64,000 nt of DNA from Modestobacter sp. DSM 44400 (lineage in GTDB: Bacteria > Actinomycetota > Actinomycetes > Mycobacteriales > Geodermatophilaceae): the NCBI RefSeq assembly GCF_900107175.1, contig NZ_FNOZ01000010.1, positions 1 through 64,000 of the forward strand. Direction: 5' to 3'. Position 1 is the first letter of the stretch; each line of letters starts with the position of its first letter. Below the pieces are notes generated by a model that saw only the letters and a program-made list of their open reading frames with translations, was not told the DNA's origin and ran no database searches. Position numbers and translations under genes: made by a program. Below, one piece after another: positions 44,668-63,507 of the stretch.

Positions 44668-45324
44668 TCAGTCGCCTCTGACCTGCTCCCCGATGGAGGG
44701 GTCCTCGGCCCACTTCCGGTAGGGAATCCGGCGGATCTCCTTGACCTCGCCGATGGTCGACCACTCGTTGCCGCCCAGCCGGGCCAGCGGCCGCAGCTGA
44801 TCGATCCGGGCCCGACCGTCGCGGACGGCGGTCTCCCAGACCGACACGTGCACCACCCGCCCGAAGACGACGGTGCTGTCGCCCAGCCGCAGCGTCGAGT
44901 GCAGGGCGCACTCGAGCGAGACCGGGGACTGGGCCACCCGCGGCACGCTCACCGTGTCGCTGGGCTCCAGCCGCACCCCGGTGTGCTCGGCCTCGCTCTC
45001 CCCGGCGGGGAAGTCCGTGCCAGTCGCGTTCACCCGCTCGAAGAGCGCCTCGGGGGTCAGGTTGACGGTGAACTCTCCGGTGGCCTCCGCGTTGCGCAGC
45101 GAGTCCTTGCGGCCCACCGAGGTGAACTGCACGATCGGCGGGTCGACGCAGGCCACCGTGTAGAAGGAGTGCGGGGCCAGATTGTGCACGCCTTCGGCGG
45201 ACTGGGTGACCACCCAGGCGATCGGCCGGGGCACCACGACGGAGTTGAGCACGCGGTAGAAGGCGCCGGTGTCCATCTCGGCCGGGTCGAAGGAGACGCG
45301 CTGCGGGCTGCTCTGCACGGTCAC
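44668..45324 (-). CDS. Flavin reductase-like (FMN-binding split barrel) protein
   Basis: A 218-residue flavin-binding split-barrel protein: 'FYRVLNSVVVPRPIAWVVTQSAEGVHNLAPHSFY' and 'FTVNLTPEALFERVNATG', then 'VFGRVVHVSVWE'. These proteins use FMN and NAD(P)H as oxidoreductases or flavin suppliers. It lies 44 bp downstream of the UAG-containing thioredoxin-like gene on the same strand, so the two may form a redox operon. The GTG at 45324 is one of two close candidates (also 45318). Confidence 0.85.
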   Translation of the reverse strand: MTVQSSPQRVSFDPAEMDTGAFYRVLNSVVVPRPIAWVVTQSAEGVHNLAPHSFYTVACVDPPIVQFTSVGRKDSLRNAEATGEFTVNLTPEALFERVNATGTDFPAGESEAEHTGVRLEPSDTVSVPRVAQSPVSLECALHSTLRLGDSTVVFGRVVHVSVWETAVRDGRARIDQLRPLARLGGNEWSTIGEVKEIRRIPYRKWAEDPSIGEQVRGD

Positions 45325-45368
45325 CTGCCCATCGTCGTCCACGCCTCCCGGGGTGGCGCGGCCGGCTA

Positions 45369-46024
45369 CTACCGGTCCGGCGGGTGCTCGGCCCGCCACT
45401 CGTCGAACGCGCCGAGGAAGGACTCGGCCATCCGCTGCTCGGTGGCGAGCTGCTCGCGGTCCCGCTCGTCGACCATCCGTTCGCCCAGCGCCATCGTGTT
45501 GAAGCGGATGGCCCGGAAGTAGGTGATGAAGCTGGCGGGCCGGAACGCGCGCTTGGACGGCTGCGGTTCGACGCCGTCGGGAGCCCAGGGATCGGGCGTG
45601 GGCAGCGCCGGCAGGCCCAGTGCCTCCACCGCGCTCAGCACCGGTTCGTCGTCGACCCGGTCGGTGAAGTCCCGGGACAGCTCGCGGAATACCTCCCGGC
45701 CGTCCGGGGCCACGGCCAGCACGATCGACCGGAAGATCGAGGCATCGGTGTCCCAGGCGCCCAGCGGCTTGGCGAGCCGCTCGCCGTCGGGGTCACTGAC
45801 CCAGCGGAAGGGCAGGAACCACGTCCTGTTCATGGCGAGCTGGGCCTCGGGAGGGTCGACCGAGGCGAACACCACCTCGGTGCCGGCGGCGGACAGGCGG
45901 GACAGGGACCGGGCCAGGCGAACCGCCTGGCGCAGCAGTAGGGCTACCAATCGCCGCGCAGACCGACCAGTAGGAGGGCGGCGCGCTCGTCGGAACGCAG
46001 GGCGAGCAGGTCGTCGCTGTTCAT
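45369..46024 (-). CDS. Thioredoxin-like/AhpC-TSA-like protein with UAG at the CxxC (candidate selenoprotein)
   Basis: ATG 46024 opens 'MNSDDLLALRSDERAALLL VGLRGDW', then TAG (45946-45944), then PYC. This is the D-W-C-P-Y-C active site of a thioredoxin-fold redoxin with UAG in place of the first, nucleophilic cysteine. The rest ('LRQAVRLARSLSRLSAAGTEVVFASVDPPEAQLAMNRTWFLPFRWVSDPDGERLAK' to TGA at 45369) is conserved but one base out of frame: the sequence reads TACTGCTGCGCC where TACTGC-C-TGCGCC is expected. A perfect hairpin with a GGU at its apex follows the TAG, as in bacterial SECIS elements. About 218 residues. It is probably a Sec-x-x-Cys thiol oxidoreductase, provided the single-base shift is an error or is tolerated. 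Confidence 0.75.
45913..45931 (-). promoter_or_regulatory. SECIS-like hairpin after UAG (thioredoxin-like gene)
   Basis: On the mRNA strand, GCCAGGCG (45931-45924) and CGCCTGGC (45920-45913) form a perfect 8-bp stem with loop GUU; opening the top pair gives loop GGUUC. The GGU lies 20-22 nt after the UAG (21-23 if the apparently missing base is restored). Stem length, spacing and apical GU match the minimal bacterial SECIS recognised by SelB. Confidence 0.7.
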
Positions 46025-60788: not shown

Positions 60789-61808
60789 TCAGGCGGATGT
60801 GGCCGGCTGCGCCACCCGCAGCTCCAGGGGGTGCCAGGTCCGCGAGCGCCCCGGCTGGGCTGCGGCGCAGGTCAGGTGGGCGGCCTGCTCTGACATGCGG
60901 CTCTCCACGGTGACCACGACGTCGCCGTCCGGGCCGGCCAGCGTGACCGCCCACCGCTCGACCCCGGCCGCGGGCGCGGGCAACGTCTGGACGCCGCGCG
61001 GCCGCAGGTCACCGACCGCCAGCAGCCCCAGCCGGCCGCGGGCGTGCTGCTGCGCGGCCTGAACGGGGGCGGACAGCCCGGCCCGCCCACGCAGCCACGG
61101 CAGCACGACCTGGCCCTGCTCAGTGGCGTAGACCAGCTCCTCGCCGTCGTCGGGCACCTGGCCGTAGACGTGCCCGTGCGGCAGCACCAGCACGTTGGCG
61201 GCGAACCGGTCGCCACCCAGGTGGCTGGTCTCCCAGACGTCGCCGGGGTCGGTCGGCAGCGACCGGGCCAGCGGCCGGCCGCGCACCGCACAGCAGACGT
61301 CGTGCGCGCCGTGGGTGCACACCAGGTAGGTCGGGGTCTGCGACGGCGTGCCCGCGCTGCCGTCCCAGGGGGCGTCCAGCAACTCGGCGTCGCTCGTCCG
61401 CGTCGACCACCACACCGTCTCCACCCCGGGCGTCGTGTCGGCCACCGCCCAGCGGTGGCCGGAGTCCGACAGCCGGTTCCCGGGACGGCGCACCAACTGG
61501 ATCCGGACGCCGGCCTCCCGCGCCCGGGCCGCCAGCCGGGGCGCGACCTGCTGGTCGAACCGGGACTCCAGCAGCGCGTCGCGCCCCCACGGGCCGGGCT
61601 GCTCCACCAGCAGCCAGCGGTGGGCCGGGGGCGCGGTGGCGGTCGGGGAGTCACCGCGCAACAGTGCCTGCACCGAGCACCGGGACGGCTCCAGCCGGCC
61701 CACCGGACGGGACGGCGCCGTCGCGGCGTCGGCGTCCCCGCTCACCCGGGCGGACAGGCGGTGCTCCGACCCCGTCGGCTGTGCCGGGATGTCACCCACG
61801 GCCCCCAT
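60789..61808 (-). CDS. Sucrase/ferredoxin-like (Suc_Fer) 2Fe-2S protein
   Basis: A 339-residue protein of the Suc_Fer family with a thioredoxin-like ferredoxin fold. The cluster cysteines appear as 'PSRCSVQ' near the N-terminus and 'VCTHGAHDVCCAVRGRPLAR' centrally, followed by 'DVWETSHLGGDRFAANVLVLPHGHVYGQV'. It overlaps the JmjC-type oxygenase gene by 17 bp on the same strand and is therefore a plausible electron donor or partner for it. Its substrate and redox role are unproven. Confidence 0.85.
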   Translation of the reverse strand: MGAVGDIPAQPTGSEHRLSARVSGDADAATAPSRPVGRLEPSRCSVQALLRGDSPTATAPPAHRWLLVEQPGPWGRDALLESRFDQQVAPRLAARAREAGVRIQLVRRPGNRLSDSGHRWAVADTTPGVETVWWSTRTSDAELLDAPWDGSAGTPSQTPTYLVCTHGAHDVCCAVRGRPLARSLPTDPGDVWETSHLGGDRFAANVLVLPHGHVYGQVPDDGEELVYATEQGQVVLPWLRGRAGLSAPVQAAQQHARGRLGLLAVGDLRPRGVQTLPAPAAGVERWAVTLAGPDGDVVVTVESRMSEQAAHLTCAAAQPGRSRTWHPLELRVAQPATSA

Positions 61809-63120
61809 CGTGCCTGTCGCCGTCCGGCCGCGGATCGGGGGTCGCGCCGGGCACGACCGCGATCGACTCGGTGACCAGCCGGCGGCCCAGCCGCACCTGC
61901 CCCTCGGGGTTCAGACCGGGCAGGTCGCCCACCCGGAGCTCGCCGGCGGCCAGCAGCCCGGCCACGGCCGGGCGGGTCGCCGCCGGCAGCTCCAGCGAAC
62001 GACGCCCGGCGATCAGGGTGACCCGGTCGCCGACGGCCTCGTGGAGCTGGAGGCGCAGCAGCGGGCGGACCTGCAGCACCGTGTCGCCGTCCAGGGCGGC
62101 GGCCGCGGCGGACTGCGCCAGCGGTGCCACCGGCTGCGGACGCACCTGGCCCCAGGTGCGGGCGCGCAGCCGGTCGGCCACGTCGGCCGGGTCGATCCGG
62201 TCCAGCCACCGGTGCAGCCCGGCCAGCACCGCGGCGACGTCCTCGGCGGCGGCGTCCGGATCGGCCAGGTCCACGCCCAGCGGCAGTGAGCCGCGCAGCT
62301 CCTCGTCCTGGGCGGCCAGGGTGCGCATCAGGTCCAGGGCGGACTCCACCGCTCCCCACCGGGTGACGGGATGGACGCCGACGGTCAGGTGGGCACTGAT
62401 CCGGCCCAGCGCGACGGCGGAGTGCAGATAGCCGCGCGGGAGGTAGAGGGCGTCGCCGGGCCGCAGCACCGTGTCGATCACCGGCGGGCGCTCCGCGGCG
62501 GCGGCGACCTCGTCCGGCCGGTCGGTCCAGGGCTGGCTGCGCAGCGGGTCGGGAAGCACCGGCTCGTGGATGGTCCAGTGCTTCTCCCCGGCCACCTGCA
62601 GCACGAACACGTCATGCACGTCGTAGTGCGGGGAGAACCCGCGCGAGGACGGCGGGGTGATGTAGGCGTTGACCTGCGTGGGATGCCCGAGGTCGGCGGC
62701 GAGCTGGCCGGCGAAGTCGATCAGCGGCGGCCAGAGCCGGTGCAGGCCCTGCAGGACCACGGTGCTGCCCTCGGCGAACAGCCGGAGCACCGCGTCGGAG
62801 GAGACCTGGTCGGCGACCTCGGCACCGGCGCCCTGCGGGCTGGTGAAGCGCGAGGGGTCGACGACGGCGCCGTCCTTGGCGATGCGCAGGAACGGGGTGC
62901 GCAGCCCGCGGGTGCTCAACAGCTCGTCGACCGCGTCGAGGGTGAGCAGGTCGGTGAAGGTGCCCCTCAGTTCCGCGGCGCTGGAGAGCAACGGCCGGCG
63001 CGACCAGTGCTCCGCGGCGAAGACCTGCGGGTCGACGCGGATGCAGCGACGCAGGGCCGGGCGGGCGCCGCCCTTCGGGGAGGACGGCGCCCGGTCCTGC
63101 GTGGTCGGGCTCGTCGTCAG
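61792..63120 (-). CDS. JmjC-like cupin oxygenase (ROX/YcfD family)
   Basis: A 2-oxoglutarate/Fe(II) oxygenase-like protein: 'FAAEHWSRRPLL' (family N-terminus), 'VNAYITPPSSRGFSPHYDVHDVFVLQVAGEKHW' with the H-x-D facial triad, 'DALYLPRGYLHSAVAL' with the distal His, then a winged-helix-like C-terminus. ROX proteins hydroxylate Arg or His in ribosomal proteins. The conserved N-terminus requires a start upstream of the TTG at 62991, and the only candidate is CTG 63120, overlapping the stop of the Asp/Gly/Ala peptide gene (CTGA). That gives about 442 residues. The overlap suggests the peptide may be its substrate. Confidence 0.85.
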   Translation of the reverse strand: MTTSPTTQDRAPSSPKGGARPALRRCIRVDPQVFAAEHWSRRPLLSSAAELRGTFTDLLTLDAVDELLSTRGLRTPFLRIAKDGAVVDPSRFTSPQGAGAEVADQVSSDAVLRLFAEGSTVVLQGLHRLWPPLIDFAGQLAADLGHPTQVNAYITPPSSRGFSPHYDVHDVFVLQVAGEKHWTIHEPVLPDPLRSQPWTDRPDEVAAAAERPPVIDTVLRPGDALYLPRGYLHSAVALGRISAHLTVGVHPVTRWGAVESALDLMRTLAAQDEELRGSLPLGVDLADPDAAAEDVAAVLAGLHRWLDRIDPADVADRLRARTWGQVRPQPVAPLAQSAAAAALDGDTVLQVRPLLRLQLHEAVGDRVTLIAGRRSLELPAATRPAVAGLLAAGELRVGDLPGLNPEGQVRLGRRLVTESIAVVPGATPDPRPDGDRHDGGRG

Positions 63121-63359
63121 GCGGAACCGTCCGCGCCGCCGTCGTGCTGGCCGGCGGCACCGCTGTCGGCAGCACCCGAGTCGGCGGGGCCTTCGGTGCC
63201 GCCCTTGGCACCGCCGTCCGCACCGCCGTCGGCACCGGCGTCCGCGCCGCCGTCCGCGCCGGCGTCCGCACCGGCGTCGTGCTGGCCGGGCTTGCCCTCG
63301 CCGGCACCGGAGTCGGCCGGGCCCTCCGTGCTGGTCATGTCGTCGTCGTCGAGCGCCAT
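63117..63359 (-). CDS. Asp/Gly/Ala-rich repeat peptide (80 aa), possible oxygenase substrate
   Basis: ATG 63359, preceded by GGAGAAG, encodes 80 residues: a short head MALDDDDMTSTEGP, then almost only D, G, A, S and E. The motif EGPADSGA occurs twice and GQHD-GAD occurs twice, with GAD/GGAD repeats between them. There is no signal peptide or hydrophobic segment. The stop overlaps the CTG start of the JmjC-type oxygenase. It is unrecognised; the repetitive Asp/His content next to a hydroxylase gene suggests a modified peptide (RiPP-like) or metal-binding protein. Confidence 0.7.
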   Translation of the reverse strand: MALDDDDMTSTEGPADSGAGEGKPGQHDAGADAGADGGADAGADGGADGGAKGGTEGPADSGAADSGAAGQHDGGADGSA

Positions 63360-63507
63360 GGCTTCTCCGATCGTCGTCCCTGCGGCCGCCGGACGGCGAC
63401 CACCCCGGCCTGTTCTACCGCGACGACCGACTCTGCACACCTGCGGACCGCGCGCCGGTGGACGGTACCCAGCGTTTCTCGTTGTGCGCGGGGGGTAGCG
63501 CCTGCGG

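Follow-up and report, generated by a model that had tools for sequence, protein, structure and literature searches.

In bacterial selenocysteine insertion sequences (SECIS) of the Escherichia coli fdhF type, a hairpin with a GGU-containing apex lies close behind the selenocysteine (Sec) codon. UAG-encoded selenoproteins of the Geodermatophilaceae were reportedly described by Mukai et al. in 2016. The Secmarker paper (PMC5330540) records tRNA-Sec with anticodon CUA in three genomes of the family, adds an AhpC selenoprotein of Blastococcus saxobsidens DD2 whose Sec codon is TAG, and names formate dehydrogenases and UGSC-motif proteins as UAG selenoproteins of the family; on that source, UAG-encoded Sec in Geodermatophilaceae, AhpC included, is already known. 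A review lists peroxiredoxin (Prx)-like thiol:disulfide oxidoreductases of PF00578 with a UxxC motif as predicted selenoproteins (PMC13188914). The locus considered here lies in a 64,000-nucleotide stretch of Modestobacter sp. DSM 44400 (hereafter the window), where a minus-strand gene for a peroxiredoxin-like protein carries UAG at the active-site position. We are highly confident that this UAG encodes Sec in the U-x-x-C motif of an AhpC-TSA-like oxidoreductase whose frame is displaced in the window, most likely as a recent null allele or through an error of assembly.

As far as those sources go, the gene resembles the UAG selenoproteins of Geodermatophilaceae in bacterial family, tRNA-Sec CUA and use of UAG as Sec codon. 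It differs from the B. saxobsidens DD2 AhpC, to which it is likened by description and not residue by residue, in coming from Modestobacter and in its displaced frame. With the Prx-like UxxC selenoproteins of the review it shares the motif and an AhpC-TSA assignment by Pfam (intact relative L028, 41.8 bits), differing in that its Sec codon is UAG; no NCBIfam model matches L028 at E 1. The present analysis adds a codon/anticodon comparison across two genes, a UAG gene beside selA, UAG as both Sec codon and terminator in one gene, and a repeated loss of frame. No description of a solute-binding selenoprotein or of such frame loss was seen in the literature searches made, neither having been sought by its own terms.

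The UAG codon and its counterparts in other genomes

From position 46024 the minus strand reads MNSDDLLALRSDERAALLLVGLRGDW, then TAG at 45946-45944, then PYC; re-reading the window sequence confirmed the GDW-TAG-PYC of the initial annotation. The features of the locus are as follows.

45944..46024, minus strand: N-terminal coding part, from the ATG at 46024 to the Sec codon, ending RGDW-UAG; the start lies 26 codons 5' of UAG
45944..45946, minus strand: UAG, predicted selenocysteine at the nucleophile position of U-x-x-C, from the column comparison and the genome's tRNA-Sec CUA
45935..45943, minus strand: PYC, completing U-P-Y-C and including the presumed resolving Cys; C30 is invariant among 17 aligned relatives
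45913..45931, minus strand: SECIS-like hairpin, GCCAGGCG-GTT-CGCCTGGC, from its position, GGTY apex and silent-site conservation
45929..45930, minus strand: C run, one base short of 28 of the 30 family copies, where the frame is displaced; the same deficit occurs in Blastococcus sp. CT_GayMR19 (G029)
45369..45929, minus strand: the protein's conserved peroxiredoxin-like tail, in the -1 frame and closed by the terminator TAG at 45371-45369; from dN/dS (nonsynonymous over synonymous rate) against relatives
44668..45399, minus strand: flavin-reductase-like neighbour gene overlapping the tail; Pfam PF01613, 86.2 bits

The distance from ATG to UAG is the same or nearly so (25-27 codons) in the loci of 41 relatives. 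Besides L028, an ortholog from outside the family (G133, see below) exceeds the AhpC-TSA cut-off of 26 bits, scoring 33.4; the window tail alone reaches 20.8 bits, under that cut-off, and NCBIfam models give G133 weak matches far under theirs. The modelled fold is peroxiredoxin-like, with the nucleophile at the start of a helix, and intact relatives would be Sec-x-x-Cys peroxiredoxin-like (AhpC-TSA) thiol/disulfide oxidoreductases with predicted redox activity. The Sec-x-x-Cys oxidoreductase proposed at the outset is supported, with Sec insertion as its inferred step, while the label "thioredoxin-like" is better put as peroxiredoxin-like.

Matches to the gene were found in 33 of 112 family genomes, 30 holding the gene proper and three (G028, G038 and G057) weak partial matches. 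TAG stands at the Sec column in all 30 copies, the frame being unbroken in 28 and displaced in the window and G029, and all 30 genomes carry a tRNA-Sec with anticodon CUA. The column also reads TAG in 13 of 13 loci from named genomes, one of them displaced (L022); at least five of these (L015, L019, L020, L022 and L025) overlap the family set, so that the two series are not independent. A sample of 397 genomes of the order, family members included, gave 55 matches and a single full-length ortholog outside the family, G133, which is 56% identical, has TGA at the column and a tRNA-Sec with anticodon UCA. Eight more distant matches from the order were read: seven have a Cys motif of the RG-x-WCPYC type, and no motif was found in the eighth (L165). 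The window genome itself holds a distant Cys paralog with RGSWCPYC (L159, contig C113).

In the phylum sample (396 genomes, 59 with matches), 19 loci besides the window were read, and the exact Sec column is TGA in 18 and TGC in one. The 20 orthologs read outside the family thus comprise 19 with UGA and one with Cys. A tRNA-Sec above the cut-off was present in 17 of the 19 phylum genomes, always with anticodon UCA; none was found in G612, which has the Cys (TGC) copy, or in G548, which has a TGA copy. Altogether, UAG copies go with CUA in 30 of 30 cases and UGA copies with UCA in 18 of 19, with no mismatch wherever a tRNA-Sec was read. Homologues have Cys or UGA at this column, and other genomes retain UAG together with the hairpin sequence; the conditions that the initial annotation named as refuting its reading were tested, and none of them did so. 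The UAG of the window gene is very probably the Sec codon of a peroxiredoxin-like active site.

The genome offers the machinery for such decoding. Its assembly (5.0 Mb, 99.93% complete) contains a tRNA-Sec with anticodon CUA (L001; Rfam RF01852, 66.9 bits against a cut-off of 47), selA (421.7 bits), selB (283.2 bits) and selD (386.3 bits), the last three above their curated cut-offs and on the tRNA-Sec contig within about 10 kb. The initial annotation had named selC with a CUA anticodon and these three genes as those to look for in the genome, and all are there. A second selB-like match on contig C104 scores 206.9 bits, under the cut-off.

The same pairing of codon and anticodon is seen in another gene. 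At 9175-14319 of L006 (contig C78), the window genome has, in order, selC(CUA), a solute-binding protein gene with an in-frame TAG, selA and selB. When read through, the solute-binding gene matches family 5 (PF00496, 130.3 bits), with the TAG in GEGHW-UAG-VIDEPGPW. Close copies have TAG in four other CUA genomes (G096, G063, G111 and G048) and TGA in G074, whose tRNA-Sec is UCA; a further close copy, in G058, is split. In a more distant paralog read at nine loci, one of them in the window genome, eight loci have TAG at the column and that of G075 has TAA. The gene beside selA is a candidate second UAG selenoprotein. A solute-binding paralog of the window genome (L178, contig C115) has TAG at the same column, its frame being displaced about 170 codons on.

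Among the 112 family genomes, the tRNA-Sec anticodon was determined in 64: it is CUA alone in 56 and UCA alone in seven (three in genus g6, one in g7, three in g8), and one genome has both. That genome, G059, carries tRNA-Sec(UCA) and tRNA-Sec(CUA) together (L155, L141). Because UCA is in wider use, the anticodon would have changed from UCA to CUA, inside the family, with Sec codons matching. Since UGA/UCA and UAG/CUA genomes exist, as seen in two different genes, the path of a Sec-codon switch can be put to a direct test.

The hairpin behind the UAG codon

Counting the first base past TAG as +1, GCCAGGCG occupies +13 to +20 (45931-45924), the loop GTT +21 to +23 (45923-45921) and CGCCTGGC +24 to +31 (45920-45913). 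The coordinates originally assigned to the hairpin are correct: a perfect stem of 8 base pairs with a GTT loop, starting 13 nucleotides past UAG, with GGU at +20 to +22. The GGU apex and the similar distance from the Sec codon recall the fdhF-type SECIS; the stop codon (UAG here), the stem and the bulge differ.

The apex sequence GGUC or GGUU begins at +21 in every one of the 28 intact UAG copies; the two displaced copies have it at +20. Of the 19 UGA copies (G133 and 18 from the phylum), 13 have it at +21, and in the other six GGTY lies elsewhere or is absent. On inspection by eye, 18 of the 19 UGA copies have GU at +22/+23, which the Cys copy lacks. Silent sites are conserved over the same segment. 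Among the 28 intact copies, silent variation is 0.161 bits in codons +1 to +11, against 0.649 bits in 74 other comparable columns, and nine of the 11 codons past UAG show none at all. None of 20000 amino-acid-matched draws, which were possible for eight of the 11 codons, gave a value as low. What varies in the stem of intact copies is a one-sided C/T change only, turning G-C into G-U.

In the mechanism that we propose, SelA, with selenophosphate supplied by SelD, would make Sec-tRNA(CUA), and SelB would bind the hairpin just 3' of UAG and bring this tRNA to the codon. A UAG without such a hairpin would still end translation, this gene's own terminator included. The terminator is TAG in 15 of the 30 family copies, among them the window copy (45371-45369), in which UAG very probably also stands for Sec at codon 27. 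This points to two meanings of UAG in one gene, Sec and terminator, so that context must distinguish between them. The window sequence as deposited would not be a working selenoprotein gene; its intact relatives should be.

The missing base and the displaced frame

Where 28 of the 30 family copies have CCC at the hairpin foot, the window and G029 copies are each one C short. The initial annotation had noted a missing base directly after PYC. The deficit is present in the assembly, although it falls a few bases beyond that point, within the C run (45930-45929); the missing base was noted correctly, but it need not be a private error, since a genome of another genus shares it. As a result of the shift, the 0 frame of the window copy closes 37 residues past UAG (about 45832) and the conserved tail lies in the -1 frame. 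The CCC run is one among the 26-34 runs of three or more bases counted per copy in four intact copies. The perfect 8-base-pair stem is confined to the two displaced copies among 31; intact stems have 7 base pairs in 20 of 28 copies and contain G-U in the other eight.

Phylogenetically, the tails of the window and G029 copies do not group as sisters (support 0.82 for a clade that has the window and lacks G029); the tail-only tree gives 0.09 for the pairing of the window copy and 0.65 for its genus. Measured against the five nearest relatives of each, tail dN/dS is 0.23-0.37 in the window copy and 0.25-0.27 in G029, values inside the span of the six intact copies shown. No consistent relaxation of selection on the tail was apparent, the displaced copy having a higher nonsynonymous-to-synonymous ratio than its partner in three of nine branch triples. 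In each displaced copy, one codon that never varies among the 28 intact copies is silently altered: +8 is GTT instead of GTC in the window (G000), and +11 is GCT instead of GCC in G029. Such changes are a weak hint of real decay, weak because both copies are also rather long branches. As to the rate of frame errors in the window at large, open reading frame (ORF) matches were split in three of 23 and two of 29 cases against two genomes of the same genus, and in six of 62 between those two, so that no excess was shown; in this comparison stop-to-stop ORFs that take in neighbours cause splits, and the comparison with G029 matched just three and one genes. One split match in the window lies at 61330-63443.

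Two accounts of the missing base carry most of the weight. The loss could be real and recurrent, the near-palindrome driving a deletion by template switching that completes the stem at the cost of the reading frame, in which case the selenoprotein would be lost repeatedly at its own SECIS. The same one-base deficit in two non-sister copies, their perfect stems as against the 7-base-pair or G-U stems of intact copies, and the silent changes within the hairpin region all point this way, and we give this account close to an even chance; yet there are two cases only, the tree is of the tail alone, with the support values given above for the window pairing and the genus, and plain slippage or an artefact would look identical. 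Alternatively, the strain may have an intact UAG-Sec gene from which sequencing or assembly dropped a base at the GC-rich perfect hairpin. That selection on the tail is not clearly relaxed, that only two displaced copies of 30 were struck, both at one run out of 26-34, and that the perfect stem is found in just those two of 31 copies are what one would expect of such an error, which we consider a serious possibility, if somewhat short of even; the assembler coverage value of 138.7 for G029 and the silent change that each displaced copy has at an otherwise invariant hairpin-region codon speak against it. The likeliest description of the window's missing base is a young null allele or a hairpin-associated assembly error. 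If the recurring deficit at the SECIS foot is real, it suggests a way in which genes of this kind may disappear. It is also conceivable that the displaced frame is used: having inserted Sec at UAG, ribosomes would be held up by the strengthened hairpin and shift -1 into the conserved tail. This would couple Sec recoding and frameshifting at one signal in two non-sister lineages; no slippery motif was recognised by eye at the window's frame displacement, and we judge it very unlikely.

Several observations weigh against reading the UAG as Sec. The folding energy of the window hairpin is ordinary for such GC-rich DNA (z -1.0 to -1.9), and in 29 relatives compared with codon-shuffled controls z lies between -0.71 and +0.90. 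Hairpin energy, being no better than shuffles or codon-shuffled controls, was dropped as SECIS evidence; because the energies are ordinary for the base composition, the SECIS evidence is position and conservation, not stability. G548 has a UGA copy, yet no tRNA-Sec was found in its genome, and the G075 solute-binding paralog (L156 / L094, contig C70) has TAA at the Sec column though its tRNA-Sec is UCA. The match of codon and anticodon amounts to about one switch per gene, all CUA genomes read belonging to one family, and related genomes do not make 48 independent events. Finally, the window copy has no single end-to-end reading frame, and a full-length protein would need a frameshift. This displaced frame, with the silent changes in both displaced copies, would also suit a decaying Cys peroxiredoxin gene hit by two lesions, a plain nonsense mutation (the UAG) and the missing base. 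Such a pseudogene is highly improbable in view of UAG in 30 of 30 family copies, UGA in 19 of 20 orthologs read elsewhere and a tail dN/dS (0.23-0.37) inside the range of intact copies. Insertion of pyrrolysine by the CUA tRNA would agree with ARAGORN, which calls this tRNA tRNA-Pyl. That label was dropped on the Rfam score for tRNA-Sec (66.9 bits over a cut-off of 47), and with UGA or Cys at the column in orthologs and selA, selB and selD on the contig of the CUA tRNA, the chance of pyrrolysine is next to nil.

Minor features of the window genome and its relatives

The TAA paralog of G075 also has a further internal stop, and may be a pseudogene, contamination or something else. A molybdopterin oxidoreductase of the window genome (L176, contig C98) contains a single in-frame TAG, in NQARI-UAG-HSSTVP; judging from the motif, it is probably a formate dehydrogenase. 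In tblastn searches on the loci, a flavin-reductase-like gene like that at 44668..45399 was also found to adjoin the other seven same-genus copies in the family set.
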